Below, piece after piece: positions 3,318-33,200 of a stretch of 39,744 bases of DNA; within the stretch, counting starts at the first letter, position 1, and each line of letters opens with the position of its first letter. The stretch is from Desulfobacteraceae bacterium (GTDB lineage: Bacteria; Desulfobacterota; Desulfobacteria; Desulfobacterales; JAABSP01), in contig JAABTM010000011.1 of the NCBI GenBank assembly GCA_011389855.1, positions 1 to 39,744 on the forward strand, given 5' to 3'. The translations under genes and the position numbers were made by a program. A model generated the notes under the pieces. It saw nothing but the letters and a program-made list of their open reading frames with translations, searched no databases and was not told the origin of the DNA.

Positions 3318-3537
3318 TATTTCCATTTTTCGCCAAATCTGCTACCATCCCTCCATATTCACAGTCTATATCCATCCGCCGCGGACGCCTCCGGGCGCCC
3401 CCCTTTTCGGGCGGCGTCCTTCATGGACGGCCCGTATCCGCGGGCGGACCGCTTCACCGCCATTCGCACAGCAGGTTGCGACCATTGTGGAACGATCGAT
3501 TGACATCCTGACGCCGGAAAAGATAGAAACATCCGAC

Positions 3538-4983: not shown

Positions 4984-5030
4984 GCGGGCGGATTCGGCGC
5001 TCTGTCTGAAATCCCAAGCGGAGACATTGT

Positions 5031-5960
5031 ATGCGTAAAAAGTTCACGCTCTTCATCATGAGCAATACCGGGGGACGCCCCCGCCAATGGACGATCTCCG
5101 GGGCCTTTGTGGGGTGCCTGTGCCTCCTGACCCTGGCAGCCGCCGTCCCCATCGGCCACTGGATCCACGGTTACCATCAACTCAAGTCCCTGATTCCCGA
5201 AAATCAGCGGCTGCGGGCCGAGATCGAGACCCAGCGGTCCCGGATGACCGACCAGTCCACCCACATCCGCCGGTTCGCCGCCGACATCGGCGATCTCAAG
5301 GAGCGCATGGCGGCCCTCAACGGGTTCGAACACAAGATCCGGATTCTGGCCAGCCTCGACACGCCGGACAACAGCCGGTCCTACCTGGGCATCGGCGGCG
5401 CCATGCCCTCGGATCTGGACCCGTCCGCCTCCCTGACGGAAAAGCAGTCTGTCCTCATTCGGGAGATGCACGGCCAGGTGGACCATCTCCAGGGCGCGGC
5501 CGCCGTTCAGGAATCGGATCTCCGGTATCTCATGAAAGGGGTCATCCGGAAGCAGAACTTCCTGGCGGCCACCCCCTCCATCCATCCGCTGAAAGACGGA
5601 TGGGTCACATCCAATTTCGGCAACCGGAAATCGCCCTTCACCGGCCTCCGGGAGTTTCACACCGGGCTGGACGTGGGCGCGGCCGAAGGCGCGCCGATCC
5701 TGGCGCCGGGCAACGGCACGGTCACCTTCGCCGGGACAAAGGGACTCTACGGCAAAATGGTCATCCTAAACCACGGCCACGGCATGGCGACCCGGTACGC
5801 CCATCTTTCCAAAATCCTGAAAAAACGCGGCGAAGCGGTGAAGCGCGGCGACGTCATCGGCCTGGTGGGCGAAACCGGCCGCTCCACCGGGCCCCATCTC
5901 CACTACGAAGTCCGCCTCAACGGCACGGCCGTGAATCCGAAGGATTACATCCTCAATTAG
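5031..5960 (+). CDS. M23-family (LytM-type) cell wall endopeptidase
   Basis: Membrane-anchored periplasmic peptidoglycan hydrolase or activator of 309 residues. One membrane segment lies at about 21-45, followed by a coiled coil at about 50-105. The C-terminal M23 domain has the zinc ligands His210 and Asp214 in FHTGLDVG and His291, with catalytic His289, in GPHLHYEV. The core is intact, so activity is likely. The charged N-terminus (MRKKFTLFIM) before the membrane segment is usual for this architecture. The start is supported by GGAG seven bases upstream. It lies 47 bp after the response regulator on the same strand and ends at a strong hairpin, so it may share that transcript. Roles in cell division or envelope remodelling are typical of the family but not shown here. 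Confidence 0.9.
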   Translation: MRKKFTLFIMSNTGGRPRQWTISGAFVGCLCLLTLAAAVPIGHWIHGYHQLKSLIPENQRLRAEIETQRSRMTDQSTHIRRFAADIGDLKERMAALNGFEHKIRILASLDTPDNSRSYLGIGGAMPSDLDPSASLTEKQSVLIREMHGQVDHLQGAAAVQESDLRYLMKGVIRKQNFLAATPSIHPLKDGWVTSNFGNRKSPFTGLREFHTGLDVGAAEGAPILAPGNGTVTFAGTKGLYGKMVILNHGHGMATRYAHLSKILKKRGEAVKRGDVIGLVGETGRSTGPHLHYEVRLNGTAVNPKDYILN

Positions 5961-5970
5961 GCCCATCCGG

Positions 5971-5997
5971 CCGCGGGGGAGCGCAACTCCCCCGCGG
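5971..5997. terminator. Strong hairpin between convergent genes
   Basis: A perfect 11-bp stem (CCGCGGGGGAG pairing with CTCCCCCGCGG, loop CGCAA) lies 10 bp after the M23 gene and 18 bp before the end of the zinc-ribbon gene on the other strand. The T-run is weak, but the position suits a bidirectional terminator. Confidence 0.7.
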
Positions 5998-6015
5998 GGC
6001 CTTGATCACCTTGTC

Positions 6016-6225
6016 TCAGCAGGTCGAAAACACCTGCCCCGCCATGTGATTTTGAATCCCCGCCATGACCGGCAACACCGGGTATCGACCATAAAACCGG
6101 TCCTGTTCCACCGGCATCAGACATCCCTCGCACGAATAACTCGGTTTGTCCCCGATGCCGACATTGAATGCCTGGTCGGCCTCGAACCGCTTTCCGCATC
6201 TGCTGCATTGCACCAACGACGCCAT
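6016..6225 (-). CDS. Small zinc-ribbon protein
   Basis: Protein of 69 residues starting MASLVQ. Two CxxC pairs (CSRC at 7-10 and CEGC at 32-35) fit a single zinc-ribbon or rubredoxin-like knuckle; no other domain is present. The start is well supported by AAAGGAGG eight bases upstream of the ATG. It is the second gene of a unit with the EIIA gene, 23 bp downstream of it, and ends at the hairpin shared with the M23 gene. The function is not recognised. Co-transcription with an EIIA suggests a regulatory or adaptor role, but this is an inference from position only. Confidence 0.75.
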   Translation of the reverse strand: MASLVQCSRCGKRFEADQAFNVGIGDKPSYSCEGCLMPVEQDRFYGRYPVLPVMAGIQNHMAGQVFSTC

Positions 6226-13609: not shown

Positions 13610-14889
13610 TAGGGTATCGTCTTTCTTTTCTGACGGTTGAGATAGTCGCGGATGACGGCGCAGGCCCGGTCCGCGCCGCCCTGGCGGCGGCGGACATAGG
13701 CCATCGCCCGATATCGAATCGCTTCGCGGTCGGCGGGATGGGTCAAATCTTTCAGAAGAGTCGCCGCCACGCCGGCGGCGTCCGGCCGGACCCGCACCAG
13801 CCCGTTATCGACAACCTCCCGGCCGACCCACGCGAAATTCTCCCAGGAAGGGCCGATGGCCGGCCTCACCCCCGCCATGAGGGGCTCCAGCACGTTCTGA
13901 CCGCCCAGCGGCGCGAGGCTCCCGCCCACAAAAGCGGCCGAGGCCCGCTCGTAGGCCGCGAACAGTTCGCCGAAGACATCCCAGAGGAGGACGGTTCCGG
14001 GCCGAACCGGGTCCCGGGTCGCCGACCGCAACCGCCAGGGAACCCCCATCCGGTCCAGGACCGCCTGCCAGTCCGGGATCCGCTCCATGTGCCGGGGAAA
14101 GAGCCCGATCACCGCCCGGGGACAGTCCCGAACGAGCCGGCCGACGATCTCCGCCGCCGGCCCTTCCTCCTCACGCCGCACCGAACCGAGCACCGCGAAG
14201 GGGACGGCTTCCGGAATCGCCGACGCCGCCGACGAGGCCCCGCCGGCGACCGGGACCGCGACCCGGTCGAACTTCATGTTGTCCATCACCGACACCCGGT
14301 CGGCCCCGAACAACCGGGAAAACCGGTTCGCGTCGCTTTGGGAAATGGCCAGAACCCGGTCCGGGGCCAGGGATCGCCAGATGGCGGGCCAGATCCGGTA
14401 CCGTTTCAGGCTCCGCTCGGTCATCCGGCCGTTGACGATCAGGACGGCATGGCCCCGCCGCTTCAGGGCATACAACAGTCCGGGCCAGATCTCCGATTCC
14501 AGCAGCACGACTGCTTTGGGGTTCACGGCCCGCACCGCCCGGTCCATGACGGCGGGATGATCGAAGGGGAAATAGGCCGTGGAGACCGACAATCGGTCGC
14601 CATCCCCCGACGACGCCCCTGCGAATCCCTCCAGAATCTCCATCCCCTGCCGGGTGTTGGCGGTGGCCAGGGTCCGTGGAAGCCCATCCGCCCCTATCCG
14701 GGAAAGGAGCTGGACCGCCAGATACGATTCCCCGGCCGATGCCCCCTGAATCCACAGGTCGGCCCCGCCGGACGGCCAATCCTTTAAAATCCGCTGCTCG
14801 AATCCTTCCTGCAAGCGGGGATTCCGGGCCAGAAAAGGCATGGCGAGCCGCCACCCCAGACCGTAAAGCCGAAACGCGGCTCTTTCCAT
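13609..14889 (-). CDS. waaA: Kdo transferase (3-deoxy-D-manno-octulosonic acid transferase)
   Basis: Membrane-associated glycosyltransferase of 426 residues that adds Kdo from CMP-Kdo to lipid A precursor. Characteristic stretches are WIQGASAGE near the N-terminus (the conserved G-A-S-x-GE), TTANTRQGMEI-like ATANTRQGMEILEG, the DHPAVMDRAVRAVNPKAVVLLESEIWPGLL segment, NGRMTERSLKRYR, and, in the C-terminal half, FVGGSLAPLGGQNVLEPL and GPSWENF, which are diagnostic for WaaA/KdtA. ATG 14889 is preferred, with GGTGG upstream; a TTG six bases earlier is possible. The stop overlaps the kdsB start. A 27-codon open frame with a good ribosome binding site ends two bases before this ATG and may couple its translation. 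Confidence 0.95.
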   Translation of the reverse strand: MERAAFRLYGLGWRLAMPFLARNPRLQEGFEQRILKDWPSGGADLWIQGASAGESYLAVQLLSRIGADGLPRTLATANTRQGMEILEGFAGASSGDGDRLSVSTAYFPFDHPAVMDRAVRAVNPKAVVLLESEIWPGLLYALKRRGHAVLIVNGRMTERSLKRYRIWPAIWRSLAPDRVLAISQSDANRFSRLFGADRVSVMDNMKFDRVAVPVAGGASSAASAIPEAVPFAVLGSVRREEEGPAAEIVGRLVRDCPRAVIGLFPRHMERIPDWQAVLDRMGVPWRLRSATRDPVRPGTVLLWDVFGELFAAYERASAAFVGGSLAPLGGQNVLEPLMAGVRPAIGPSWENFAWVGREVVDNGLVRVRPDAAGVAATLLKDLTHPADREAIRYRAMAYVRRRQGGADRACAVIRDYLNRQKRKTIP

Positions 14890-14891
14890 TA

Positions 14892-14975
14892 TCAATCCAC
14901 CCGACCGGCGCCGATCAGCCGCTCATCGACCCATTTTCGGACTTCGGGGGCCAGCCATCGGATATGTCGGTTCAT
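14892..14975 (-). CDS. Possible 27-residue leader peptide coupled to waaA
   Basis: ATG 14975 is preceded by GGAGG at six-base spacing and opens a 27-codon frame (MNRHIRWLAPEVRKWVDERL...) ending in TGA just two bases before the waaA ATG. The peptide is basic and would be amphipathic. It could be a translated upstream frame that couples ribosomes onto waaA, or the shrunken start of a lost gene. No homologue is recognised, and the length alone could be chance. Confidence 0.35.
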   Translation of the reverse strand: MNRHIRWLAPEVRKWVDERLIGAGRVD

Positions 14976-15046
14976 CGTGCGCCTCCGGTTCTCGTTCAGA
15001 CCGGATCATTACAGAAAAAAGGCGCCGACCACAAGGGAAAATCGTC

Positions 15047-15074
15047 TTGCCTTTTCGGCGGATTCTGATAATCT
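15047..15074 (+). promoter_or_regulatory. Candidate promoter for argF
   Basis: TTGCCT (15047-15052), a 16-bp spacer and TAATCT (15069-15074) give four of six matches in each box. The start codon follows 42 bases later. No ARG box is evident. Weak support. Confidence 0.3.
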
Positions 15075-15115
15075 TTCCCCTTTTCTTCAAACGATTCGGA
15101 TTCGGGAGGATCCCT

Positions 15116-16051
15116 ATGGACATCGAACACTCATCCCTGGCGGGCAAGAACCTCATCGCCATCCACGACCTGTTCCTGTCGGAGCTGGACCTCATCTTCG
15201 ATACCACGGCCAAACTCAAATCGGTCGGACGGCCCCTGGACGTCCTCAAGGGCAAGACCCTGGCCATGATCTTTGAAAAATCATCCACCCGGACCCGGGT
15301 CTCTTTCGAGGTGGGAATGTATCAGCTCGGCGGCGCGGCCCTGTTCCTGAACACCAGCGATCTACAGTTGGGACGCGGCGAGACCATCGCGGACACGGCC
15401 CGGGTCCTGTCCCGGTACGTGGACGGCATCATGGCCCGGACCTTCGCCCACCAGACCGTGGTGGATCTGGCCGAAAACGCGACCGTGCCGGTGATCAACG
15501 GCCTCACCGACCTCCTTCACCCCTGCCAGGCACTGGCGGACCTTTTCACCATTATGGAAAAGAAAGGCAAGCTGGCCGGACGGAAGCTCGCTTTCGTGGG
15601 CGACGGCAACAACGTGGCCCATTCCCTGATGGTCGCCTGCGCCAAAATGGGGATGCACTTCACCCTGGGATGCCCGGAAGGGTATGAGCCCAACGCGGCG
15701 GTGGTGGCCCAGGCCAGGGAAGACGCCGAGGAGACCGGCAGCGAAATCCGGATTCTCAACGACCCCGTCGCCGCTGCGGCCGATGCCGACGCCATCTACG
15801 CCGACGTCTGGACCAGCATGGGCCAGGAGGCGGAAAAAGCCGAACGCCTTGCCAAATTCGCCCCCTACCAGATCAACAGCGACCTCGCGGCCCACGCCAA
15901 ACCCGACCATTTGATCATGCACTGCCTCCCCGCCCATAGGGGCGAAGAGATCACCGACGAGGTGCTCGACGGGCCCCATTCAGTGGTGCTGGACGAAGCG
16001 GAGAACCGGCTGCATGTTCAGAAGGCGATCATGGCGTTGACGATGATCTGA
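15116..16051 (+). CDS. argF: Ornithine carbamoyltransferase
   Basis: Cytoplasmic arginine-biosynthesis enzyme that makes citrulline from ornithine and carbamoyl phosphate. The 311-residue length is normal. The carbamoyl-phosphate loop is SSTRTRVSFEVG (near residue 50), followed by HPCQALADLFT, the ornithine-side DVWTSMGQE and the catalytic HCLPAHRGEE. All are intact and the family signature FEKSSTRTR is exact. ATG 15116 is supported by GGGAGG six bases upstream; the frame extends 23 codons further without a ribosome binding site. It converges with the cyanophycin operon, whose polymer contains arginine. That makes a metabolic link plausible although the genes are on opposite strands. Confidence 0.96.
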   Translation: MDIEHSSLAGKNLIAIHDLFLSELDLIFDTTAKLKSVGRPLDVLKGKTLAMIFEKSSTRTRVSFEVGMYQLGGAALFLNTSDLQLGRGETIADTARVLSRYVDGIMARTFAHQTVVDLAENATVPVINGLTDLLHPCQALADLFTIMEKKGKLAGRKLAFVGDGNNVAHSLMVACAKMGMHFTLGCPEGYEPNAAVVAQAREDAEETGSEIRILNDPVAAAADADAIYADVWTSMGQEAEKAERLAKFAPYQINSDLAAHAKPDHLIMHCLPAHRGEEITDEVLDGPHSVVLDEAENRLHVQKAIMALTMI

Positions 16052-16085
16052 ACCATCCCCCGGCGTCATCCGGCGAGAGACGACC

Positions 16086-17384
16086 CTATTCATCGATGTC
16101 GCTGAACTCGAAATTGAGTCCTTTCAGGATCTGCTCGTAATTCCAGAGCAGCGAGGAGAGCTTGTTGGCGCCCATCCAGATGTGGGCCGCGGCATAGCTG
16201 TAGGCGTCCTGCTCCGGCAGATCCTTGAGGCGCATGCCCTCTTTCACCTGGGGAGCGATCCGCGTGCCGTGAACCCGGGCCGCGACCGCTTCGATCTCCT
16301 CGGGCGGCGGCACGCGCGCCGCCGTCGCATCGGCGAAGAAAACCCGATAGAAGAAGTTGGCCGCGACCTTGTAGGCCCCCTCCCCCCGGGGCATGTCGGG
16401 ACGCCGGCCAAGGCCCAGATCGACCGTCACCTGCTGGTGGCTCAGGCCGTCCACCTTCTCGAACAGGTCGCAATGGGCCTGGGCGATGCGGGTGTTGATT
16501 TCCAGGAGCCAGATCTGGTCCTGAATCTCGTCCCAGAAAAATTCGATATTGAAGGCCGAATTGTCATAGCCGGTATGGGCCATGACCGTTCCGGCCAGAT
16601 CCCGCATCTTCTTCTGGACCCTTTCGGGAAGCTGGGACGGATAGAGGTAATAGAAAAAACTCAGAACCTGCGGGTAACGGATGGAATCGACCATGGCGTA
16701 ACACGTCACGACGCCGTCCTGGACATAGCCCTCCAGGGTGCATTGCCGCCCGCCGATCACCTGCTCGGCCATGCAGCAGCCGCCGTTCGCTTCGCGGATC
16801 CCGTCCGGCAGGTCCGCCTTGCCGAGCACATAGTCGAAGGGCTCGGCGATGGAGCCGATTTCCTCCCTGAATTGGGTTACGGCGTGATCGAAATCCTCGG
16901 GCGAGTCGATCCGGAACCCCAGCCGGGAGCCCGACGACTTGATCGGTTTGACGAAAAAAGGAAACGCCAGCCCGGCGGCGCCGATCCGGCCGAGGGCCTC
17001 GTCGTCAAAGGGATCGAAATAGGTGAATTTGGGGACGTTGTCGGGGATCACCTCCCGCTGGACCACGCGGCTCCAGTACTTGTGCTCGCATTTCAGAAGC
17101 GCCTCCAGCGAGACCGAGCGCGTCCCGAATTTCCGGCACAGGAGGGGCAGCATGGTGGAGACCGGAAAATCCATGTACCCGACGATGGCGTCGATGGTCC
17201 CGTCGAACGCGTTGAGCTGTCGTTCGGCCGTCTCGAGCATGGCGGGAATGTTGAAAGTTTCGGTTTCATAGATAAGCGCGGGATCGATCACCCCGTGAAA
17301 GTCGATCTCGTCCGCGCCGCGCAGCCGTTGCAGCCGTTCGCGGTTGATGTCGTTCAGACCGATAACGAAGACGTTTTTTTTCAT
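16086..17384 (-). CDS. ATP-grasp domain protein, third gene of the cyanophycin operon
   Basis: Protein of 432 residues with an N-terminal Rossmann-like segment (KNVFVIGLNDINRERLQRL) and an ATP-grasp fold. PFFVKPIKSSGSRLGF near residue 150 is the nucleotide-binding loop, and FNIEFFW...IWLLEINTRIAQAHCDLFEKVDG holds the metal-binding E-x-N motif (about 285-310). Enzymes of this type join a carboxylate to an amine using ATP, but the substrates here are unknown. The start has AAAGGA seven bases upstream. It follows cphA by 29 bp on the same strand. It is not a second cyanophycin synthetase, as it lacks a Mur-ligase half. Position suggests it makes or modifies a peptide related to cyanophycin, or a precursor; this is inference. 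Confidence 0.8.
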   Translation of the reverse strand: MKKNVFVIGLNDINRERLQRLRGADEIDFHGVIDPALIYETETFNIPAMLETAERQLNAFDGTIDAIVGYMDFPVSTMLPLLCRKFGTRSVSLEALLKCEHKYWSRVVQREVIPDNVPKFTYFDPFDDEALGRIGAAGLAFPFFVKPIKSSGSRLGFRIDSPEDFDHAVTQFREEIGSIAEPFDYVLGKADLPDGIREANGGCCMAEQVIGGRQCTLEGYVQDGVVTCYAMVDSIRYPQVLSFFYYLYPSQLPERVQKKMRDLAGTVMAHTGYDNSAFNIEFFWDEIQDQIWLLEINTRIAQAHCDLFEKVDGLSHQQVTVDLGLGRRPDMPRGEGAYKVAANFFYRVFFADATAARVPPPEEIEAVAARVHGTRIAPQVKEGMRLKDLPEQDAYSYAAAHIWMGANKLSSLLWNYEQILKGLNFEFSDIDE

Positions 17385-17413
17385 CTGGGTTCCTTTCGAT
17401 ATAGTGTCCCGGC

Positions 17414-20044
17414 TCAGACAGCCGTCGGCGCGGGCGTTCGGAAGCTGCGCCCTTTAAGGCGCTGGACCACGCCGTCGATGTCGTCCACCAGCAGCAGAAG
17501 AAGGTCGCCTTCCGAAGCCGCGTCCATGGCCCGATCGATCGCATCGTCTTCTTTCATGACGATTTCGGCCTCGCAGGTCCCGGCCGCCTCGGCCCCGCGG
17601 CGTATCAGTCCTGCGGCCTCGCCGGGTTCACGGCCGCGCGGGTCGGATTCGCAGACATAGAGACGATTCACCATCCGGGCGAGCTGCGCCCCGAGCGCCG
17701 TCAGGTCCTCGTCGCGGCGGTTGCCGGGGGCGCTGGCCACGCCGATGCGCCCAGCCGGGCCCAACCCCGCCACCAGCGGTTCCAGGGCGGTCAGGGCGGG
17801 GACGTTGTGGCCGTAGTCGATCAGACAGCGGATCCCGTCGGCCTCGATCAGGTTGGTGCGGCCCGGCAACATGCCCGGCGTCGGATGGAAAGTTTGCAGC
17901 CCCATCCCGATATCGCCCAGCGTGAGCCCCAGCGCATATCCCGCGGCCGCCGCCGCCATGGCGTTTTGCACATTGAAAGGCGCGTGCCCTTCGAAGGCGA
18001 TGGGCACGTCGTTGACCTCGACGATCTGGGCTTCCACCTTTCCCTGGCGCATGATGATCCAGCCGTTCTTCACCGTGAAGACGACGCCGTATTCGGCCGC
18101 ATGATCCGCCAGGTCGGGATTGTCGGGGTTCATGGTGAAATAAAGAATGCGGCCCCGGGACCAGTAAGTCCCGTGCTCCATCACCAGGGGGTCGTCGGCG
18201 TTGAGTACGCAGGCGCCCTCGGGCTTCACCGCGTCCACCACCACGGTCTTGCACCGCGCCAGTTCCTCCAGGGTATGGATCTCGCGCTCCCCCAGGTGAT
18301 CGCTGGCGATATTGAGCAGCACGCCCACGTCGCAGGCGTCGAACCCGAGACCGCGGCGGAGGATGCCGCCCCGGGCCACCTCCAGCACGGCGTGCTCCAC
18401 CGTCGGCTCCTTCAGCACCGTCTGGGCGGCAAGCGGGCCGCTGTAGTCGCCCCGCATGATGACATGGTTGTCGATCTCGATGGTCCCGGTGCAGGCCATG
18501 CCCACCTGCCGCCCCGAATGACGCAGGAGATGGGCGATCAGCCGGGTGGTGGTGGTCTTGCCGTTGGTGCCGGTGACGGCGGTGATGGGGACGCGTCCGT
18601 TGTCCTCGACATCGGGAAAGAGCATCGCCGCCACCGCGTCGCCCACCGGCCGGCCCTTGCCGTGGGTGGGGGAGAGGTGCATCCGGAACCCCGGACCGGC
18701 GTTCACCTCCACCACCCCGGCGGACTGCCCGTCGAGGGGTTTCGTCAGGGTCTCGGCCAGGAGGTCGATGCCGATGATGTCAAGCCCGATAAGCCGGGCG
18801 ATGCGCTCGGCCGCGTATTTCACATCCGGGTGGACGTCGTCGGTGAAGTCGGTGGCCGTGCCGCCGGTGGAGATGTTGGCCGTGGATTTCAGCCAGACGA
18901 TCTCGCCCGCGGGGATGACGCTGTCCAGGGTCAGCCCCGCCCCCTCCACCATCCGCTCGGTCTGTTCGTCGATATGGATCTGGGTCAGCAGATTTTCGTG
19001 CCCCACGCCCCGGCGGGGATCGGCGTTCTCTTTGTCGATCAGCTCCCGAAGTGTGGATTTTCCGTCCCCGACCACATGGGCCGGCCGCCGGCGCGCGGCG
19101 GCGACGAGCTTGCCGTCGATGACCAGAAGCCGGTGATCCTCGCCCTTGATGAACTGTTCCACGACCACCGAGTCGTGGTGCCGGAGGGCGGCGTCGAATC
19201 CTTCCCGCAGCTCCTCTTCCGCGGCGATGCCGGTGGTGACGCCGCGTCCGTGGTTTCCCGACAGGGGCTTGGTCACCACGGGATAGCCGATGTATGCCGC
19301 CGCCTCCAGGGCTTCCTCCAGGCTGTAGCAGATCCGGCCATAGGGGACCGGGACGCCGGCGTCGCCTAGTATTTGCTTGGTCCAGTCCTTGTCGTCGGCG
19401 ATGCCGTGGCCGAGGATGGAGGTCTTTCCGGTGACGGTGGCCTGGCAACGCTGCTGACGGCAGCCGTGGCCGAGCTGGATGTAGCTGGTGTCCTCGGTCA
19501 GGCGATAAAAAGGGATGTCCCGGCGCCGGGCCGCCTCGACGATGGAGGCGGTGGAGGGACCCAGCATGTTGTCGTCCCGCACCCTCTTCAGCCGAGCGAT
19601 CACCGCCGGCATATCGATGTTTTCGCCGTTGAAGAGCCCTTCGACGATGGCCACGGCTTCCTCACCCGCGGCCAGACCGCAGGCCTCGTCGCGGTAACGG
19701 TAGACCACGTTGTAGACGCCGGGTTCGTAACTGTCCACCGTCTTGCCGTAGCCGACCGAAAAACCGATCTCGTTCTGCAACTGGATGGCCACATGCTCGA
19801 CCATGTGTCCGGCGTATGTGCCGTTTTGGACCCGCTGGAGGAACCCCCCCGGCTCTCCGACGGAACATCGGTGTTCGTAAATGCCCGGCAACATCTCTTT
19901 CAGGCGGTCGGCGATCCCGGAGATCCCGTCGCTCGGCATGTGTTCGAGGTCGCCGATGTCCAGCCGCATGTAAACGGTCAGATAGCGGCTGTAATAATTG
20001 GGGCCGCGAAGCGCCCTGTGCTCAAGTATCTCCATTGTCTTCAT
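17414..20044 (-). CDS. cphA: Cyanophycin synthetase
   Basis: Cytoplasmic ligase that builds the storage polymer cyanophycin (an aspartate backbone with arginine side chains) without a ribosome, using ATP. The 876 residues are the usual length for CphA1. The N-terminal domain (LRGPNYYSRYLTVYMRLDIG) precedes an ATP-grasp domain (about 205-475, with KPLSGNHGRGVTTG and the metal motif VVEVNAGPGFRMHLSP). A C-terminal Mur-ligase-like domain follows, with P-loop GTNGKTTT (492-499) and IASDHLGEREIHTLEELARCK. Both active sites appear complete. The ATG at 20044 overlaps the end of cphB by 23 bp; an in-frame ATG at 20035, with AAGGA at better spacing, is equally likely as the true start. It lies between cphB and the ATP-grasp gene in one operon. 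Confidence 0.95.
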   Translation of the reverse strand: MKTMEILEHRALRGPNYYSRYLTVYMRLDIGDLEHMPSDGISGIADRLKEMLPGIYEHRCSVGEPGGFLQRVQNGTYAGHMVEHVAIQLQNEIGFSVGYGKTVDSYEPGVYNVVYRYRDEACGLAAGEEAVAIVEGLFNGENIDMPAVIARLKRVRDDNMLGPSTASIVEAARRRDIPFYRLTEDTSYIQLGHGCRQQRCQATVTGKTSILGHGIADDKDWTKQILGDAGVPVPYGRICYSLEEALEAAAYIGYPVVTKPLSGNHGRGVTTGIAAEEELREGFDAALRHHDSVVVEQFIKGEDHRLLVIDGKLVAAARRRPAHVVGDGKSTLRELIDKENADPRRGVGHENLLTQIHIDEQTERMVEGAGLTLDSVIPAGEIVWLKSTANISTGGTATDFTDDVHPDVKYAAERIARLIGLDIIGIDLLAETLTKPLDGQSAGVVEVNAGPGFRMHLSPTHGKGRPVGDAVAAMLFPDVEDNGRVPITAVTGTNGKTTTTRLIAHLLRHSGRQVGMACTGTIEIDNHVIMRGDYSGPLAAQTVLKEPTVEHAVLEVARGGILRRGLGFDACDVGVLLNIASDHLGEREIHTLEELARCKTVVVDAVKPEGACVLNADDPLVMEHGTYWSRGRILYFTMNPDNPDLADHAAEYGVVFTVKNGWIIMRQGKVEAQIVEVNDVPIAFEGHAPFNVQNAMAAAAAGYALGLTLGDIGMGLQTFHPTPGMLPGRTNLIEADGIRCLIDYGHNVPALTALEPLVAGLGPAGRIGVASAPGNRRDEDLTALGAQLARMVNRLYVCESDPRGREPGEAAGLIRRGAEAAGTCEAEIVMKEDDAIDRAMDAASEGDLLLLLVDDIDGVVQRLKGRSFRTPAPTAV

Positions 20045-20882
20045 CCTTGTCCGCCCGGATGATCTCCCCGGGCTGGAGAAAGCGGCGGCCCTTCACGTCG
20101 TAGCCGAAACCGCTGGTTAATGCGTGTATGATCACATGCTCCACCGCCACGGGCTCCCCTTCGGAGAGGCTCGCCACATTGGACGACCTGAGGCGGGAAC
20201 TGTCCACCACGATCACATGGCCGGAGCCGATGGCTTCGAGCACCGGGCCGTCGTGGACGATCACCGCGGCATCCTCGCCGATGCCGATCCCCAGAAATTC
20301 GGGATTGGCCGCGCCCACCTCGATCAGCCGCGTGAACCGGCCCCGTTCGAGGAAATGGCTGTCGATCACCACCCCCTCCACGAAGCCGAACCCCGCGCTC
20401 ATCTTGACCGCGCCCTTGCGGAGCGCCTCGGCGGCCGAGCCTTCGTAAATCATGGTGGTCGATTGGACCGCGGCCCCGGCGCTGGTGCCGGCCACCACGG
20501 CGCCGCCGGCGAGCCGCTCGCGCATGGCATTCAGAAGCGGCGATCCGCCAAGGATATGGGTCAGCCGGAGCTGGTCGCCGCCGGACATGAAAATCACGTC
20601 GCACCGGCGGAGAACGTCCACAAACCGATCCTTGATCGCCCCGTTCCGGGTCCGCACATCGATGTGGTGGACCGTCGCGGCGCCGAGCTGGGTAAACACC
20701 TGCTCATAGGTTGGAAACACCTCGTCCGGGATGCTGCTGGCGGTGGTAATAACGCCGACCTCATGATTGTCCGAGGGCGAAAGCTCCAGCACGCGCTGTA
20801 AAATTTCCGACTGCGATGTCTTGTCTTCAGCCCCGCCGATGGCGACGAGGACGCCTTTGCCTGCTGTGGTCTGACTGGTCAT
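20022..20882 (-). CDS. cphB: Cyanophycinase
   Basis: Serine exopeptidase of family S51 that cuts cyanophycin to beta-Asp-Arg dipeptides. 286 residues from ATG 20882. GVLVAIGGAEDK near the start is typical, the nucleophile elbow is AGTSAGAA (Ser134), and FMSGGDQLRLTHIL, AGFGFVEGVVIDSHFLERGRFTRL and GIGIGEDAAVIV are family signatures. Frames reaching back to 20996 run through the -35 box of the operon promoter, so 20882 is preferred. It is the first gene of the operon and overlaps cphA. Degradation and synthesis genes are thus co-transcribed, as in many cyanophycin loci. Confidence 0.95.
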   Translation of the reverse strand: MTSQTTAGKGVLVAIGGAEDKTSQSEILQRVLELSPSDNHEVGVITTASSIPDEVFPTYEQVFTQLGAATVHHIDVRTRNGAIKDRFVDVLRRCDVIFMSGGDQLRLTHILGGSPLLNAMRERLAGGAVVAGTSAGAAVQSTTMIYEGSAAEALRKGAVKMSAGFGFVEGVVIDSHFLERGRFTRLIEVGAANPEFLGIGIGEDAAVIVHDGPVLEAIGSGHVIVVDSSRLRSSNVASLSEGEPVAVEHVIIHALTSGFGYDVKGRRFLQPGEIIRADKDEDNGDT

Positions 20883-20967: not shown

Positions 20968-20996
20968 AGTCTAGATAGGAAGAGGGCTTTTGTCAA
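20968..20996 (-). promoter_or_regulatory. Sigma-70 promoter of the cyanophycin operon
   Basis: On the minus strand a perfect TTGACA (20996-20991), a 17-bp spacer and TAGACT (20973-20968, four of six) lie about 80 bases before the cphB start codon. The position decides against longer cphB reading frames. Confidence 0.55.
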
Positions 20997-21427: not shown

Positions 21428-22540
21428 TTATGGACATGGAACAGCATCGATCGCCGCATCAACCAAGGTTCGGGATATTGGAGCGCCCATTAATGGATCT
21501 TTGCGCTTCCGGGTCAGGAAAGATTCAGCTTTGCACCCACCTCCGCAGATGGAAAAAATCGGACATCCTCTGCAGGGTTCGGGCATAAACCACCGCCATT
21601 TGCGCAGTGCTTCCGATTCTAAAATCGCTTGAATTGAATCGGACAAAACATTCCCGGCAATTACTTTTGAATGATTGCAAGGCCTTACGTTTCCCCATGG
21701 GTCGATGGTGATAAAGGAAGCGCCAGCGCCGCACACCGCTGCAGATGAGGGGAAAAAACAGTGTGGGATCGCCGCTCCGGTTCTGATTCTCGCCCCTTGG
21801 GCGCTGAGGGATGCAATGTTTCTTAAAGCGGACAGCGCCTGTTCCGGCTTGGGTTCGAGGCCGCTTTTTTCAGAACCGATAAGACGATTGAAAGACACCC
21901 CTTCTGCGCCCAAATAACGCGCCAGCGTACATATCTTTGAGACAAGATCGCAGTTGTAAAGCGTCATTACCGTTGAGAGGACAACCGGCAGCCCGGCAGA
22001 AACGGCCAGATTTATGTTTTCAATGGTTTCACGGTATGATCCCGGCGTTTGCGTGAAGGCTTCATGACTGAAATCGTCAGCCCCGTGGAGGGAGACGACC
22101 AACCCTTTCAATCGTCGTTTTCGACTCAGGGCATCGATAACTTCCGTTGAATCCGCCCAGCGAGCATTGGTGAAAATCGTGTAATTGACTGAATAGGCGT
22201 CGATCACATCCAATATCTCGAAAAACTGGGGATGAAGCGTGGGCTCTCCGCCGGTAATAACGACATGAGAGACGTGTGGAATCAGCGTTTCACACACTTG
22301 AGCCCAATCATCTCCAGATAAAAATGGCTTACAAATGACACATCTTTCTTCAAAGACGTTTCCGCATCCTGGGCAACTATTGTTGCACTCCGGGGTAATT
22401 TCACAATAGACGCTTTTTAAAGCCGCTTGAAAGCCGCGTTCTTCGTTCAGAATGTAAGGATACCGCCCACAGTCGCATTGGTATGCGATTTCGTCAAACC
22501 AGTTCCGCAGGCCCTCGCTTTCCAATTCCACGTTCAACAT
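21428..22540 (-). CDS. Radical SAM enzyme with C-terminal SPASM-like domain
   Basis: 370 residues. The [4Fe-4S]/SAM motif is CNNSCPGC (Cys52, 56, 59), followed by VVITGGEPTLHPQF (the GGE motif) and LVVSLHGAD. The C-terminal third has a SPASM-type cysteine set (VCGAGASFITIDPWGNVRPCNHS, then PCRGCPIFSICGGGCKAES), expected to hold auxiliary iron-sulfur clusters. Such enzymes typically modify peptides or act as sulfatase-type maturases. An N-terminal extension (about 1-45) contains an extra CDC pair. It overlaps the upstream TPR-ATPase gene by 7 bp, so the two are almost certainly co-translated. No obvious substrate peptide lies between the genes; the small protein just downstream, or an NTPase partner, could be modified instead (inference). 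Confidence 0.9.
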   Translation of the reverse strand: MLNVELESEGLRNWFDEIAYQCDCGRYPYILNEERGFQAALKSVYCEITPECNNSCPGCGNVFEERCVICKPFLSGDDWAQVCETLIPHVSHVVITGGEPTLHPQFFEILDVIDAYSVNYTIFTNARWADSTEVIDALSRKRRLKGLVVSLHGADDFSHEAFTQTPGSYRETIENINLAVSAGLPVVLSTVMTLYNCDLVSKICTLARYLGAEGVSFNRLIGSEKSGLEPKPEQALSALRNIASLSAQGARIRTGAAIPHCFFPSSAAVCGAGASFITIDPWGNVRPCNHSKVIAGNVLSDSIQAILESEALRKWRWFMPEPCRGCPIFSICGGGCKAESFLTRKRKDPLMGAPISRTLVDAAIDAVPCP

Positions 22541-25281
22541 CCTTTCGGGTCATCGGCTGGGTAATCATCCAGAGTCGCTGGGGTTATCCCTTTTAATGCC
22601 AAGCGGGTAACATGTTTATCCACAAAGGCCATCAATCTGGGAAACTTATTATCGGCGCCTTGGCTTCCCCAGTAGTTTTTTAATCTTGCACAGCAGGAGG
22701 ATTGATGATTTTGCTTCAGCTCATTGATTTTGCTCTCTAAACGGTCAAGTTCCTTGTCAACGGTGTAATCCCCATAGCCACCGTGTTGGGCTATCAAGAG
22801 CAAGCCCTTGCCATATTCCTGAAAGGCCTTAGCGTAGTTCTTTTCTTCATAAGCGACATCGCCTATAATTCTTTTCATCCTTCCAAAAAACAACGGAAAA
22901 TTATAGCCTGTTTTTTCAAATTTTTCAAACATTTCCCTGGCGTGTAACTTCACTGCGCTAAAGTTTCGATCTTCTAAATCAAATTCCGCCTTTTTCACCA
23001 AAGCATTGATGGCATAATAAATGTCATGTGAAGACAGCGCCCTTTCAAAAGCCTCATCATTGACTTGCCGGGCTTCCTTTTGCTTACCCAACAACCAATA
23101 AACAGAGCCAAGTTCGTGAAGCGCGCGAGGCAATTCTTTAGGGATATCAAACTGCCTTGACAACTGAATCGATTGCTCAAATGAAGCAGCAGCTTTGTTT
23201 AAAAGCGCACGTTCATCGTCAGTAAAATTTCTATTATCACCTGTAATCAGTTGGTACCATTGAGCATACCCTAAATAAAAATATCCTTCAGCGCGATTCT
23301 CATGATCGATTTCCTCGAATTCGCCTATGGCTTTGTTAATTCCATCGACGATTCCTTCTTTAAAGCCCTTTCTTCTCAAAATATCCCACCTAATAATCCG
23401 GGCTTTTGCCGTTCGTTTTGGTGCGTTTAAATTCTCCAGGATCCCAATCGCTTGTTCAATATAGTCCTTTCCAACATCAGATTGTCCAGAAATGCCGTAT
23501 GCATATCCTATGTTGGCTAAGATATCGGCAATGCCGCCCAATGCATTTCTTTTCTCCTTATCATCTATTTGATTCAGGTTTTTCATAGCCGATTGATGCG
23601 CTTTTTTAAAATATTCAACCGATTTTTCCCAATTTCCCATTAAAAGATAAACTTCGCCAAGCGCCTGTTCCTCAGTCGGTATTCTATCGTTAATGCAGTG
23701 GAATTTGCTCAATGCAAGACTTTTCTCGTGATATTTCAGCGCTTCCTGGTATTGGCCCATTTTCATGGCTGTGGCGCCAAGCGCATTATAGATGTATGGC
23801 GTCCTTTCCGGATCTTTCGGGTTCGTCTCCAGCAGCTCTTCAAACCGCTTTTGCACGCGTTTTACGGCGCCCATATCCCTTAACCATCGGCCTTCCTGAA
23901 GCATGAAGTGATATCTTTGGGGTTCCGAAAGATCATTAAGGTTAAATCGAACGGCTGAGAGCAATAAGGATGAAAAGCCATACTGGTGATTTTCCCGAGC
24001 AGCCTGGAATTCGCGCTGAAATTTTTTCATTCCTTTTCCGGGATCAATAAATATTTCATGGAATAATTTCGATGCTTTCGCTCTTTCTACTGCGATTTTA
24101 TCACCTCTTCTCGCTGCTTCATTTATTTTATCATTATAATACGATAGCATTCGCTTACTGATATCTATACGCGACTGTTTCCATTTTTCTTTTTCGACGT
24201 CCTGATCCCTGAACACATGTTTGTGAAAAAGGGACCTCAATTCATCCTGGAACCAATACGCCAGGGGGTTGCCAACAGGAAAACCCTTAACAAAAGATGT
24301 TTCGTCAAGATTTTTCAGAACTTTTCTGATTTCCAGAAAACCGGGCAATAAAACTTTCAACATCTTTTCGTTTAAAGGTTCTATGATATGGGCCATTGCG
24401 GGCAGAACCAATCTTTCAGGAGGAATGTCAATGCCTGGCTGCTCGCCCGCCAGCATCGGCAGCCTTTGAACCAAATTTTTCTCAAAAGATTTCCGATCCA
24501 CCCCCTCCACCAGCGCCCCAATATCTATGGTTGGAAAAAAATCATGCTCCATCATCCAGTCGGCGCTCAACGCAAGCAGCAAAGGCTTTTTCCTGGATAA
24601 ATCAAACAGTTTATCATCAATTTTTTCTTCCTGAACAGCACTCCATAGGCCCCTTTCCTCTAAATATTCGATAGCTTCTTCTGTGGAAAACTCATTCACT
24701 TTTTCTGGAACAACCAAATCTTTTATATTGTCTGGAAAATCGATTTCATCAGGGTTCTGTCGCCCCGATATGACCACCACGGCGGATTGCAATTCAGGCA
24801 GCCAGTCGTTTAACATCCGAATCCCCACGAGGGTGTAACGGACTTCCTCGAAGGTGTCGAATATCAAAACCCCCTTTTTTCCCTCGTCCGCAATTCGCTT
24901 CGCCCAGGATGAAAGATCTTTTATAAACTGTTGTTTATATTCAATACCTCGTTCATGAGGCGGTTTGCCTTTATACGCATCCCTAACCGCTCGATATGTT
25001 TTCATCGGATCCGATTCTGCTGTTTCTGTCAAATCGCCGGCGATTTTCATTTCTACGGCGCTCAACCGGGAACTCATTTCAAAGCCGTACAAATCGATAA
25101 CGCTCGTATGAGGCATCTTTCTTTCGTCGCACAACTCCTCAATTTTTTGCAAAATTTTCGTCTTGCCGATGCCGCCCGGCCCATATAAATTGAGGATGAA
25201 AGGCCCGCCATCAGGGGCGTCAAGCATCTGAGTAAAGGTCTCTAAATAGCGTTTTCGACCAATGAATAGCTTTTCCGGCAT
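22534..25281 (-). CDS. STAND-like NTPase with TPR repeats
   Basis: 915 residues. The N-terminal P-loop NTPase module begins FIGRKRYLETF and has Walker A GPGGIGKT (34-41), Walker B VLIFDTFEE (138-146) and a sensor-like VVVISGRQNPDE. A winged-helix-like region follows. From about 480 on, a TPR superhelix is visible (YIYNALGATAMKMGQYQEALKYHEKSLAL; GEVYLLMGNWEKSVEYFKKAH; ALHELGSVYWLLGKQKEARQVNDEAF). NTPase plus repeat sensor is the plan of STAND signalling ATPases, in which the repeats detect a ligand and drive oligomerisation. The gene lies 19 bp after another STAND-like gene and overlaps the radical SAM gene. DNA here is visibly AT-richer than flanking genes. Confidence 0.85.
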   Translation of the reverse strand: MPEKLFIGRKRYLETFTQMLDAPDGGPFILNLYGPGGIGKTKILQKIEELCDERKMPHTSVIDLYGFEMSSRLSAVEMKIAGDLTETAESDPMKTYRAVRDAYKGKPPHERGIEYKQQFIKDLSSWAKRIADEGKKGVLIFDTFEEVRYTLVGIRMLNDWLPELQSAVVVISGRQNPDEIDFPDNIKDLVVPEKVNEFSTEEAIEYLEERGLWSAVQEEKIDDKLFDLSRKKPLLLALSADWMMEHDFFPTIDIGALVEGVDRKSFEKNLVQRLPMLAGEQPGIDIPPERLVLPAMAHIIEPLNEKMLKVLLPGFLEIRKVLKNLDETSFVKGFPVGNPLAYWFQDELRSLFHKHVFRDQDVEKEKWKQSRIDISKRMLSYYNDKINEAARRGDKIAVERAKASKLFHEIFIDPGKGMKKFQREFQAARENHQYGFSSLLLSAVRFNLNDLSEPQRYHFMLQEGRWLRDMGAVKRVQKRFEELLETNPKDPERTPYIYNALGATAMKMGQYQEALKYHEKSLALSKFHCINDRIPTEEQALGEVYLLMGNWEKSVEYFKKAHQSAMKNLNQIDDKEKRNALGGIADILANIGYAYGISGQSDVGKDYIEQAIGILENLNAPKRTAKARIIRWDILRRKGFKEGIVDGINKAIGEFEEIDHENRAEGYFYLGYAQWYQLITGDNRNFTDDERALLNKAAASFEQSIQLSRQFDIPKELPRALHELGSVYWLLGKQKEARQVNDEAFERALSSHDIYYAINALVKKAEFDLEDRNFSAVKLHAREMFEKFEKTGYNFPLFFGRMKRIIGDVAYEEKNYAKAFQEYGKGLLLIAQHGGYGDYTVDKELDRLESKINELKQNHQSSCCARLKNYWGSQGADNKFPRLMAFVDKHVTRLALKGITPATLDDYPADDPKGC

Positions 25282-25300: not shown

Positions 25301-26722
25301 TTATAGATGTTTCTTTACAACCTCGATAATTCTTTCGTGGTTTCCCCCCAGAAGCTCGTGCAACTCTTCATCATTTTTAAATTCTTCATAAAAATGATTT
25401 TTTTCACGGTATTTGTATTTTTGAAAATTCTCCAGAATCAGTTCTTCAAAGTCTTCGATGCGGTGTTGAAAATCCTTTTCAGCAATTTGATGCGATATAT
25501 CGTGAAAAATAAATTCCACCAAATATAAGACGCTTTGAGGGGAACTGGAATCTTTGGCCATCGTGGTTTTCATCTCGTCATGATAAAAGGACGCCATGTG
25601 TCTATGAATGGCCATGTAAGTGTCTTTTTCTTTGTACTTCATCGATAGGGCCAGCAGCCTTCGGACGGCATTGTCAGTGGAATACCCCATTTTTTGACTG
25701 TTCCACGTCACCAAGTGAGTGGAAGCCGACATCTCCCGAATGTATCGGAGTGTCTCGATGGTATCGACGTTATCCTCTTGAGGGTGAAGATACCTTAGCA
25801 AATCAAACAGGATGTCGTTGTCAAACCGACGAAGCGGGCTTGTGATTTTCAAAAGGTTTTCAAGAAAACGACGGTTGTCCTGATCCGGTATGTCAATGAG
25901 GATAAATTGGGTCAGAATCGTGTCCGTGAGCGATAAAACCAGATCCGTTTCTCTCTCCGTCAATTGCTGGTAAAACTCAGGGGCGGCACCGCTTAAATTG
26001 TCGCCCATCCATTCAATGGCCTGGACGCTGGCAAGGGGGTATCCGCGCGTAAGCTGATAAATCTTGTTGCTCAGGCGATCATCCTTTGGCGCGATGATCA
26101 GTTTGTCTGTTTCCTCTTTATCAAAATGTTTCAAGGCGATGCGATGGGTTCGTCTTCGAAGCTCGAAACTTCGCCATCGTAGGTCCGATCTTCCCGCCAA
26201 AATCACGAGCAATTTATTCAAACGGGCGACGCGCTCCATAACGCCTTCCAGTAATTTCCGCTCCAATTCGTTTAAGCGGTGACTGTCGTCAATCATCAGA
26301 ACCGTTGGGTGGTCTTTCAGAAAATGAATCAAATGCTGCGAATAATGATTTAAAAGATTCCTCTGCTGATCTTCATTCAGTTGGGGCAGAGACAAGAGTT
26401 TCCCTTGAATGCTTTGAATCGCCTCTTTTTCAAAGCATTTTTCCGCAATTTCATTGAACATGTAAAACGGCGCTTTTTTTTCGGCCAAATTTTTTCCTAG
26501 GGAAACAACGATATGCTGAACTCCTAGCTCACCGGCAATTCCGGCGGTTTTTTCCAGCAACGTCGTTTTTCCGATGCCGGGTATGCCCGACACCGTGGTG
26601 ATGAACTGGAACAGGCTTGCGCCCTTGGCAAGCGGCTCAAGTTTTTCTGTCTTAATCGTTTTCAGCTCATCAATCCGATTGATGAATTGGGCGGTTTCGA
26701 TTCGCCGCGACGCCGGTGTCAT
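25301..26722 (-). CDS. STAND/AAA-type NTPase
   Basis: 473 residues. An N-terminal FINRIDELKTI segment leads into Walker A GIPGIGKT (46-53). Walker B is VLMIDDSHRL (141-150), with a sensor-1-like LLVILAGRSDLRW just after. The C-terminal half is helical with no recognised sensor repeat and no clear effector. GIGKT followed by a DD Walker B fits the STAND/AAA ATPase group. The ATG overlaps the stop of the preceding ATPase (ATGA) and has GGAGG at the right distance, so expression is coupled. It and its downstream neighbour share the phrasing of the P-loop start, which suggests partner subunits of one complex (inference). Confidence 0.8.
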   Translation of the reverse strand: MTPASRRIETAQFINRIDELKTIKTEKLEPLAKGASLFQFITTVSGIPGIGKTTLLEKTAGIAGELGVQHIVVSLGKNLAEKKAPFYMFNEIAEKCFEKEAIQSIQGKLLSLPQLNEDQQRNLLNHYSQHLIHFLKDHPTVLMIDDSHRLNELERKLLEGVMERVARLNKLLVILAGRSDLRWRSFELRRRTHRIALKHFDKEETDKLIIAPKDDRLSNKIYQLTRGYPLASVQAIEWMGDNLSGAAPEFYQQLTERETDLVLSLTDTILTQFILIDIPDQDNRRFLENLLKITSPLRRFDNDILFDLLRYLHPQEDNVDTIETLRYIREMSASTHLVTWNSQKMGYSTDNAVRRLLALSMKYKEKDTYMAIHRHMASFYHDEMKTTMAKDSSSPQSVLYLVEFIFHDISHQIAEKDFQHRIEDFEELILENFQKYKYREKNHFYEEFKNDEELHELLGGNHERIIEVVKKHL

Positions 26723-30217: not shown

Positions 30218-33200
30218 TTACCGCTTTGGCGGCACCGCCTCCCGAATTACCGCCCCATGCTCCTCATTCAACACCAAGATGGCGAATTTTTCAACATTAT
30301 CCAGTTCATCCGTGCTCAGCGAAACAAAATCGAACCGCCCCCGGAGATCGGTGTAGCCGTCTTTATAAAACCGCACGTCGCCGCCTTTCATACGAGCGTA
30401 GACCTTCACGTAAGTCATGGGCAGGGGTTTTCGGGTCAGGTCGTGGGCGACCTGTAGGTGGCCGTAGTCGCCAATGATCCGGACGTCCAGGGAGTTGGCG
30501 TAGTAGGTTTGGGATTTTCGGATGCCGCCGGCCGTGGCCTCGATCATTAGGTTGCTGCTACGGTACTGCTCGGGCAGGTCCACGGTGTGGACCGACCCTC
30601 CGGCCGGCAGATCCACGGTCTCCGTTTCGCTGGGGCGGATGTAGCCGAAGTGGTCGGCGTCGTCCGTCACGAAGGGGTTCCGGGAAAAGAGCAGTTCGAT
30701 GTCCATGGGGTAGTAGCGGATGCGGCATTCCTCAATGTTCCGGTACCGGATCGTGATCCGGCGGGATTCCACCGAGAAGTCGAGGCTGGGCGCGGTGGCC
30801 GCAAGTCGGGACTGGACCTGGTCCCGATCCTTGTCGTCCGCCACGGTCGCGGCGCCGCCTTCCATCTCCGCCAGTTGATCCGCGGCCTGCCGGAAAAAGT
30901 TTCGCCAGCGCGGGACCGGGTAATCGGCATACGCCGCCGCGGCCTTGCGGGTCCGGTCCAGGTCGCCCGTGTAAAAATCGATGTAGGTCTGGAGATAGTC
31001 GTACTGGAGCCGCGTCGCCAGACGTTTGGGCTCGATCCGCTGGAAAAAGGCGATGGCCTCGGCCACGCGGTCCTGGAGCAGCAGGTAGTAGACCACGGCG
31101 GTCAGGTCCGCGTCGTCGAGATGGGGCCGGTAGGACAGCACCGACATGAAGTCGTGATACTGTTCGTTGAACCGGTCGTTCAGGATCTTCCGCTCGTCCC
31201 CAAGGGTATGGGCCCGGGCGTTGACCAGGGGCCTGTATTCCAGGTGCTGGTACGTCTTCCGTTCCACCGGATCGACCGTCAGCAGGGCCGTGTCGATGGC
31301 GTAACCCACCCGGTCGGCGTACTCGGAATGCTCCAGGTACTCCCGGATGGCCGGTTCGGCCCCATGATGGAGCCCATAGGACCAGAGCGTGTGATCGTAG
31401 ACATGCCGGGACCGGAGCAGGTCCAGGGCCGCGTCGAAGAATTCCCGGTCCTTCATCCGGAAGGCGATCTTGGACAGGTCGATCCGGTTGAGGTTGTGGG
31501 ATTTCATAAAGGCGAGGACCGCCTCGGGATCGCCGTTCTGGGACACGTAGGCCCAGGATTCCGTGTCGATCTTCGTGAGCCGGGCCACCACGTTCAGGTT
31601 GGACGGTTCGGCCCCGGCCACGAAGGCCTCGTTCCGGGCCACCTGCACCGGGTAATGGCCGAAGGTTCCGGCGGCCGGAAAATAGAAATGGTATTCATAG
31701 GTCTGGGTGGCGTAGGGTTCCAGCGCGACGTGCTCCCCTTCGGTATAAAACCCCTCCTTCAGGGGCATGGCGCCCAGCGGGATCCGGAGCAGGAGCCGCA
31801 GCTTCCGTCGCGAGGACGTCGGATTGCTCAGCACCACCTGGCACCCGTAAGGCGTCTGGAGCAGGAACTCGTCGGACACGAACTTGTCGAACCGCTCGTT
31901 GCCCTCGTACCGGTACCGGTCATCGGGACGGAAATACCGCTGGGTCACCATCATGGGCAGCGGCGTCTCGGCCGCCGGGGCCGGCCGGATCTCCTGGTGG
32001 AAGGCGATCAGCGGACTGCCGGCGGTCAACGAAAAGCTCCGGTCGTCGGCGTCGGTTTTGTGGGTTTTGGATTCGAACGGCAGATCCAGTACCGACAGGG
32101 CCAGCATCATTTCGGCGAAATTGGAAACCGCCTCGGAAAAGGCCTCGGAGAAAAACGGCGCCGCCGCGTCGCTCAGGGCGTAATCCTTCCAGAACCCGTT
32201 CACGGTGATCAGATCGGCGTCCTGCTCCGCGATGGGCAGATGGTAATAATTGTTCTCGGCCCATTCCCTGGTTTTGTCGAGCTTCCGGAAGAACGGCCGG
32301 GCCTTTTGACGGGCCTCCCGTCGCGCCCGTTTCTTGAACGCCCGCCCGCTTTCCGGGGCCGGCGGCGGCGCGGCCGACCGGGCGGCCATAGTCTTGGCGG
32401 CGCCCATGGCATCGCTGCGGATCGCCGGGGCGGGGGCCATCGCCTCGGTTTCCATGGCCATATCGAAGGCCAGTTCTTTCATGGGCGCTTCGCCGTCTTT
32501 ATCCCGCAGCACCGCCTTGAGATCGTCGATCCCGAAAGCGTCCTCCTCCAGGGCGCTGCCCCGCAGGGCCGTGTCAAAGGCCCGGTTGAACCGCTCGACG
32601 TCCGGCGGGATCATCTCGAACCGCTCCTTCACGAACCGGCCGATTCGGCCATGGTCCCCCGGTCCTCCCCGGGCCAGCAGGATCTTTTCCACGATGTTGA
32701 GCCGCGAAAAGGCCCACGGATCGAGATACGGCGTCAAGTCCGCCCCCAGGAGCCAGTGGTCCATGAAGGTCTTGTCCTTCTTGTTTTCCAGGTAGGGCCA
32801 GATCACCCGGTCGAAGAAGGGCCGGTCTTTGTGGTACAGGAAGAAATTGAGTTCGTGGCAGGCGAATTCGGCGTATTTGTCGGCTTTTTCCGCGTCGTCC
32901 ATGTCGGGCCAGCGGAGGATGAAGCTGAATTTTTCCAGGGTGGCGTCCCCGCTCAGGGTCGCCATGAGCCGGTAGACCTTGCCCAGGGTGTCGAACACCT
33001 CGAACTCGGCCGTGGCGATGTCCGAAATCCGGAGCGTCTCGTCGGCCGGAACGATGGAGATTTCCTTCTGCTCGGTGAAATGGATCGTGGGATCGAGCTT
33101 GTCCCGGAGCCGGAGATCCCGCCGGGCGATGTCCGTGGCCGGCAGGGCAACCTCCCGGTAGACCGTGGACAGGGGATCGACGGCCACCAGCAGAATCAGC

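Follow-up and report, generated by a model that had tools for sequence, protein, structure and literature searches.

A putative ATP-grasp peptide ligase that accompanies one clade of cyanophycin synthetases in saline bacteria

Cyanophycin is widespread outside cyanobacteria, and in the Ngg/AsnO osmolyte system osmoadapted bacteria are known to pair a hydrolase with a ligase of the ATP-grasp type. In the cyanophycin clusters described by Sharon et al. in 2023 (PMC10206079), cphA and cphB are adjacent, often with iaaA or iadA. The same study characterised the IaaA of the Roseivivax halodurans cluster and proposed a CocE-like gene of NZ_SJEY01000003 as a possible isoaspartyl dipeptidase, and an ATP-grasp partner has 0 occurrences in its main text. 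We found no description of an ATP-grasp partner of cyanophycin, or of an ATP-grasp/CocE pair, in the literature covered, which was mostly that available without subscription.

The cphB-cphA-G3 operon

The window (the whole stretch of DNA that we analysed, 39,744 nucleotides of a contig from a Desulfobacteraceae bacterium) contains cphB, cphA and a third gene, here called G3, with argF at their far end.

15116 to 16051, plus strand: argF, ornithine carbamoyltransferase, converging on G3 (TIGR00658, 430.6 bits)
16086 to 17384, minus strand: G3, ATP-grasp ligase of 432 amino acids (PF13535 ATP-grasp_4, 39.5 bits)
17414 to 20044, minus strand: cphA, cyanophycin synthetase 1 of 876 amino acids (TIGR02068 over residues 5 to 864, 1116 bits against a cut-off of 850)
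20022 to 20882, minus strand: cphB, cyanophycinase of 286 amino acids from the ATG (TIGR02069, 239.8 bits against a cut-off of 126.6; PF03575)
20968 to 20996, minus strand: candidate sigma-70-type promoter for cphB-cphA-G3, TTGACA-17-TAGACT (consensus scan only)

Coordinates, strands and family scores agree with the sequence-only reading, which had described complete cphB, cphA and ATP-grasp genes packed with a 23-bp overlap (20022 to 20044) and a 29-bp gap (17385 to 17413). The cphB product is a peptidase S51 with a GTSAGA motif. G3 matches no NCBIfam equivalog above cut-off and is recognised only by general ATP-grasp families. A single promoter for the three genes, also claimed by that reading, is plausible from the consensus scan: the candidate matches the consensus at 10 of 12 positions and lies ~85 bp ahead of the cphB start codon (ATG), and no other minus-strand promoter-like site was found between 15000 and 21500, but the scan returned 3 sites in all against 1.5 expected. 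The supposed Desulfobacterota host fits the nearest named relatives, a Desulfobacteraceae MAG (L004, G3 97% identical) and a Desulfobulbaceae MAG (L005, 89%).

The convergence of argF is borne out, its end lying 34 bp from the G3 stop. The argument built on it, that storage is tied to arginine supply, does not hold generally, because no genomes other than the host's (the window included) and that of one congener have argF next to G3. It is a genus-specific neighbour outside the conserved module, and we rejected it as a part of the system on that ground.

G3 and its hydrolase partner

We scanned 84,980 species genomes for G3. The best 80 of 495 relatives (64 to 97% identity) belong nearly all to alphaproteobacteria and Halomonadaceae whose names point to saline or marine habitats. 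With three loci from the window's own genome and the window itself, these 80 make up a set of 84 loci. Neighbour clustering places an S15/CocE hydrolase of ~675 amino acids in 75 of the 84, nearly always directly downstream of G3. The layout is IaaA< CphB> CphA> G3> CocE> in 27 loci, from alphaproteobacteria; IadA< CphA< CphB< G3> CocE> in 16, from Halomonadaceae, in which G3 and the hydrolase diverge from the cph genes; and G3> CocE> alone in 28. The adjacency of cphA and cphB and the frequent iaaA or iadA neighbours are common to the cphA-bearing G3 loci and the CphA1/CphB clusters of PMC10206079. The order cphB-cphA-G3 is found with no hydrolase in view in the window operon, in its congener and in two alphaproteobacterial loci, and no IaaA-type dipeptidase was found in the genomes of the host and the congener.

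The host genome carries three copies of G3. The two beyond the window (50 to 54% identity) each lie beside a hydrolase, one adjoining a complete gene and the other its C-terminal end at a contig edge. Homologues at 36 to 45% identity, among them one from a further genome of the phylum to which the window belongs, mostly still adjoin the hydrolase (L089 and L095 are exceptions). One Rhodobacteraceae contig (L096) bears two G3-hydrolase pairs within 16 kb, at 2286 to 6207 and 14547 to 17860; one is inside a cphA operon, and the other is distant (39% identity) and has its hydrolase upstream. Distant G3-like proteins (31 to 37%) are also encoded on plasmids of Sphingobium, Sphingomonas and Paraburkholderia (L109, L110 and L111). 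In Sphingobium and Sphingomonas they are preceded by a gene of the vitamin K epoxide reductase family and by an RND efflux set, copper or heavy-metal genes lie near, and no S15 hydrolase is annotated. The plasmid relatives at 31 to 34% identity, which are located in metal-resistance regions, give no hint of a substrate.

The partner hydrolase has Peptidase_S15 and PepX_C domains and an invariant Ser125/Asp246/His272 (numbering of L015), and its best PDB match is cocaine esterase (1e-33). Both domains and the Ser-Asp-His residues are common to it and to the cocaine esterase and S15 X-Pro dipeptidyl-peptidase family, from which it differs by a C-terminal extension of ~100 residues and by its constant pairing with G3. 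Its AlphaFold2 model was poor (mean pLDDT 69.8) and was set aside. The CocE-like gene of NZ_SJEY01000003 very probably corresponds to the hydrolase just downstream of G3 in one of our loci (L018, from that record), and Roseivivax halodurans (L014) likewise carries G3 and the hydrolase. In contrast with the proposal of PMC10206079, an isoaspartyl dipeptidase role for the hydrolase is unlikely: about half of the 84 loci already contain IaaA or IadA, in some together with the hydrolase, and the hydrolase comes after G3 in genomes that lack cphA as well.

The AlphaFold2 model of G3 has a pLDDT of 94.4. Its closest fold by VIA-align is the L-amino acid ligase BL00235 (3vot; Z 31.1, 382 residues, 3.3 A), to which G3 is also related by sequence profile (E 7e-9). 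Further matches are BacD/YwfE (3vmm, Z 28.3; 3wnz, 28.1) and RizA (4wd3, 27.5), with phosphoribosylglycinamide synthetase (28.5) tied with BacD and PurK, PurT and the biotin carboxylases at 24 to 27. Residues K146, E281, E295, N297 and R299, the nucleotide, magnesium and acyl-phosphate residues to be expected in a functional ATP-grasp site, are invariant in the family alignment of 43 homologues. By this model, the closest fold class of G3 is that of the L-amino-acid (dipeptide) ligases. G3 has in common with BL00235, BacD/YwfE and RizA the whole-chain fold and the ATP-grasp active-site residues; it differs in sequence (~16% identity) and in genomic setting, with an S15 hydrolase beside it, and peptide ligation is a prediction.

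The profile search also placed urea carboxylase and biotin carboxylase among the best sequence matches, as would be expected if G3 were an ATP-grasp enzyme of carboxylase type, attaching bicarbonate to an amine instead of making a peptide bond. However, the match to carboxylases lies mostly in the C-terminal half of G3, an L-amino acid ligase is nearest in whole fold, and the Glu of the R-x-Q-V-E-H motif, which serves biotin carboxylases as general base (E296 in Escherichia coli), is replaced by Ala or Ser in the G3 alignment. We therefore rejected a biotin-type carboxylase and regard bicarbonate fixation by G3 as very improbable. The N-acetylglutaminylglutamine amide (NAGGN) system was excluded too, because G3 has no match to TIGR03103, the GNAT plus ATP-grasp model for Ngg. 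The likeness of the G3-hydrolase pair to Ngg/AsnO is one of function only: G3 lacks the acetyltransferase domain, and we saw no AsnO-type gene in its conserved neighbourhood.

Co-occurrence of G3 with one CphA clade

The window CphA aligns end to end with the solved SuCphA1 (7LG5) and keeps Cx19HxxEH in the N domain, the His of NHGRG in the G domain and the Asp-His of SDHLG in the M domain. With all three active-site signatures, it should be a complete, primer-independent CphA1. In two class-wide draws (327 and 312 genomes), CphA identity to the window protein was bimodal, at least 71% or at most 45%, and the CphA tree splits the G3-linked clade from other CphAs with 99% support; by these sequence measures, the window CphA is in a distinct CphA1 clade of saline bacteria. 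Most, though not all, sampled clusters of the other CphAs have a second CphA-like gene in tandem (L102 to L104, L106, L127 to L129, L131 and L132, all clusters without G3). This gene is alpha- or gammaproteobacterial, is 31 to 40% identical to the window CphA and is absent from the G3 clade. In one Halomonas genome (G313, contig C50, 4241 to 6816), cphA apparently occupies two adjacent reading frames, possibly a decaying or mis-sequenced copy.

Among 151 Halomonadaceae genomes, 62 carry a G3 that is 62 to 68% identical to that of the window (subfamily I), and 27 carry one at 37 to 44% (subfamily II). Positions 144, 151 to 154, 237 to 241 and 306 of G3 are specific to subfamily I. Every one of the 44 cphA-bearing genomes has subfamily I, and the 89 genomes that lack this subfamily are all without cphA (Fisher p 7e-24, phylogeny not taken into account). 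For subfamily II there is no association with cphA (Fisher p 0.16, phylogeny ignored). In 24 of the 44 genomes the two genes are unlinked, lying on different contigs in 19 and 0.3 to 2.9 Mb apart on the same contig in 5, so the association is more than operon membership. On the G3 tree of the Halomonadaceae, cphA switches between presence and absence at least 6 times, more than a single event could account for. Beyond this family, the four Rhodobacteraceae genomes (of 248) with subfamily I all have cphA, and seven others have cphA without G3. In the class-wide draws, each of the four genomes with a CphA at least 71% identical to that of the window has subfamily I, unlinked in two, while none of 17 tested alpha- and gammaproteobacterial genomes with other CphAs (at most 45%) has G3. 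Among 29 searched genomes with G3 and no local cphA, 18 have cphA elsewhere. G3 subfamily I thus tracks one CphA1 clade. The sequence-only reading had looked for separation of the ATP-grasp gene from cphA in relatives as a point against their connection. Separation is what we found in 24 Halomonadaceae, and these genomes strengthen the functional association rather than weaken it. The view that G3 belongs with cyanophycin is upheld both by the conserved gene order and by this co-occurrence.

These counts bear on the possibility that G3 and its hydrolase form an independent module of saline bacteria, whose co-occurrence with CphA comes from shared lineage or transfer and not from chemistry. Nearly all bearers among the best 80 of 495 relatives are saline by name or source, G3-hydrolase pairs exist without cphA, and genes that are adjacent, as they are in alphaproteobacteria and in the window, would be transferred together. 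However, within the Halomonadaceae, a family treated as uniformly halophilic, cphA is confined to subfamily I genomes, more than half of them unlinked; its presence has changed repeatedly on the G3 tree, and subfamily II has no such link. We consider an independent module unlikely.

Another alternative has G3 working directly on cyanophycin, either by attaching a residue or cap to the polymer or by supplying this CphA clade with a primer or building block, and the hydrolase removing the modification. The CphA clade is never seen without subfamily I, even where the genes are unlinked, as for an obligate partner, and G3 could take the place of the tandem CphA-like gene that its clade lacks. In opposition to this, 18 of the 62 Halomonadaceae genomes with subfamily I keep it without cphA. 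The dN/dS of G3 is 0.09 to 0.19 in two cphA-less groups, compared with 0.17 in a cphA-bearing pair of the same group. Such purifying selection in the cphA-less genomes tested suggests that G3 keeps a function without cyanophycin and, on this sequence evidence, is not simply an accessory of CphA. Subfamily II, moreover, pairs with the hydrolase without any link to cphA, and in many clusters IaaA or IadA is already there to deal with the dipeptide. A primer supplied by G3 would be unnecessary, since the window CphA carries Cx19HxxEH, the N-domain motif required for primer generation by CphA1 (PMC9262961). An action of G3 on the polymer is therefore rather unlikely, and the earlier claim that G3 mainly modifies or feeds cyanophycin fares badly, given the hydrolase as the constant partner, the selection on G3 without cphA and the primer-generating signature of CphA. 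The 18 genomes without cphA argue instead for cyanophycin as a store joined to a G3-hydrolase pathway.

A proposed make/break pair and the origin of the cassette

The reading that we prefer, and hold to be evenly balanced between right and wrong, is that G3 and the hydrolase make and break a small amide, in a metabolism connected with the pool of Asp and Arg that is kept as cyanophycin. Two observations speak against it: the window operon has no hydrolase gene of its own, and the plasmid relatives of G3 lie among metal-resistance genes without one. Cyanophycin is made by CphA and cut by CphB. G3 would use ATP to convert a carboxylate to an acyl-phosphate, and attack by an amine would then give a small, probably dipeptide-like amide, a step that we infer from the fold model. 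The cytosolic S15/CocE-type serine hydrolase, encoded by the next gene in most bearers, would break that amide; in the window organism this role would fall to a hydrolase gene elsewhere in the genome. The pair could work without cyanophycin, which would feed or buffer its Asp, Arg or beta-Asp-Arg. The Asp/Arg nature of the substrates is suggested by the association with CphA. Because the CphA clade is never found without G3 and the pair would work without cyanophycin, the polymer is best read as a store for the pair.

The product of G3 may serve salt-adapted cells as a solute or as a carrier of nitrogen, a possible role for which the basis is the habitats suggested by organism names. The more specific proposal that the pair makes and breaks such a peptide-like metabolite, drawing on amino acids that cyanophycin keeps in store, and that the cyanophycin of this clade is thereby a reservoir for more than growth nitrogen, is possible but doubtful. 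If it is true, cyanophycin in this clade would serve metabolite supply rather than growth nitrogen only. A ligase that stays with one CphA clade even when unlinked, and that has a hydrolase of its own, suggests that a pathway linked to cyanophycin has been missed in salt-adapted bacteria and makes G3 a candidate new peptide ligase.

In both trees, G3 and CphA of the window are nested among sequences of saline alphaproteobacteria, and a draw of 297 genomes from the window's phylum contained G3 in only 2, the host included. The nesting and this rarity suggest horizontal gain, and the cphB-cphA-G3 cassette was most likely acquired from saline alphaproteobacteria. Directly upstream of the operon, G+C drops from ~0.6 to 0.43 to 0.46 between 22000 and 30000. 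This low-G+C block, which is likely an island, includes the following genes.

21428 to 22540: radical SAM/SPASM protein
22534 to 25281: AAA/TPR protein
25301 to 26722: AAA_16 protein

Farther along, a minus-strand open reading frame of 2083 amino acids (30218 to 36469) has no Pfam or PADLOC match and is overlapped by long antisense open reading frames. A protein of 1015 amino acids (36634 to 39681) combines an FGE-sulfatase domain with a weak NACHT-like match.
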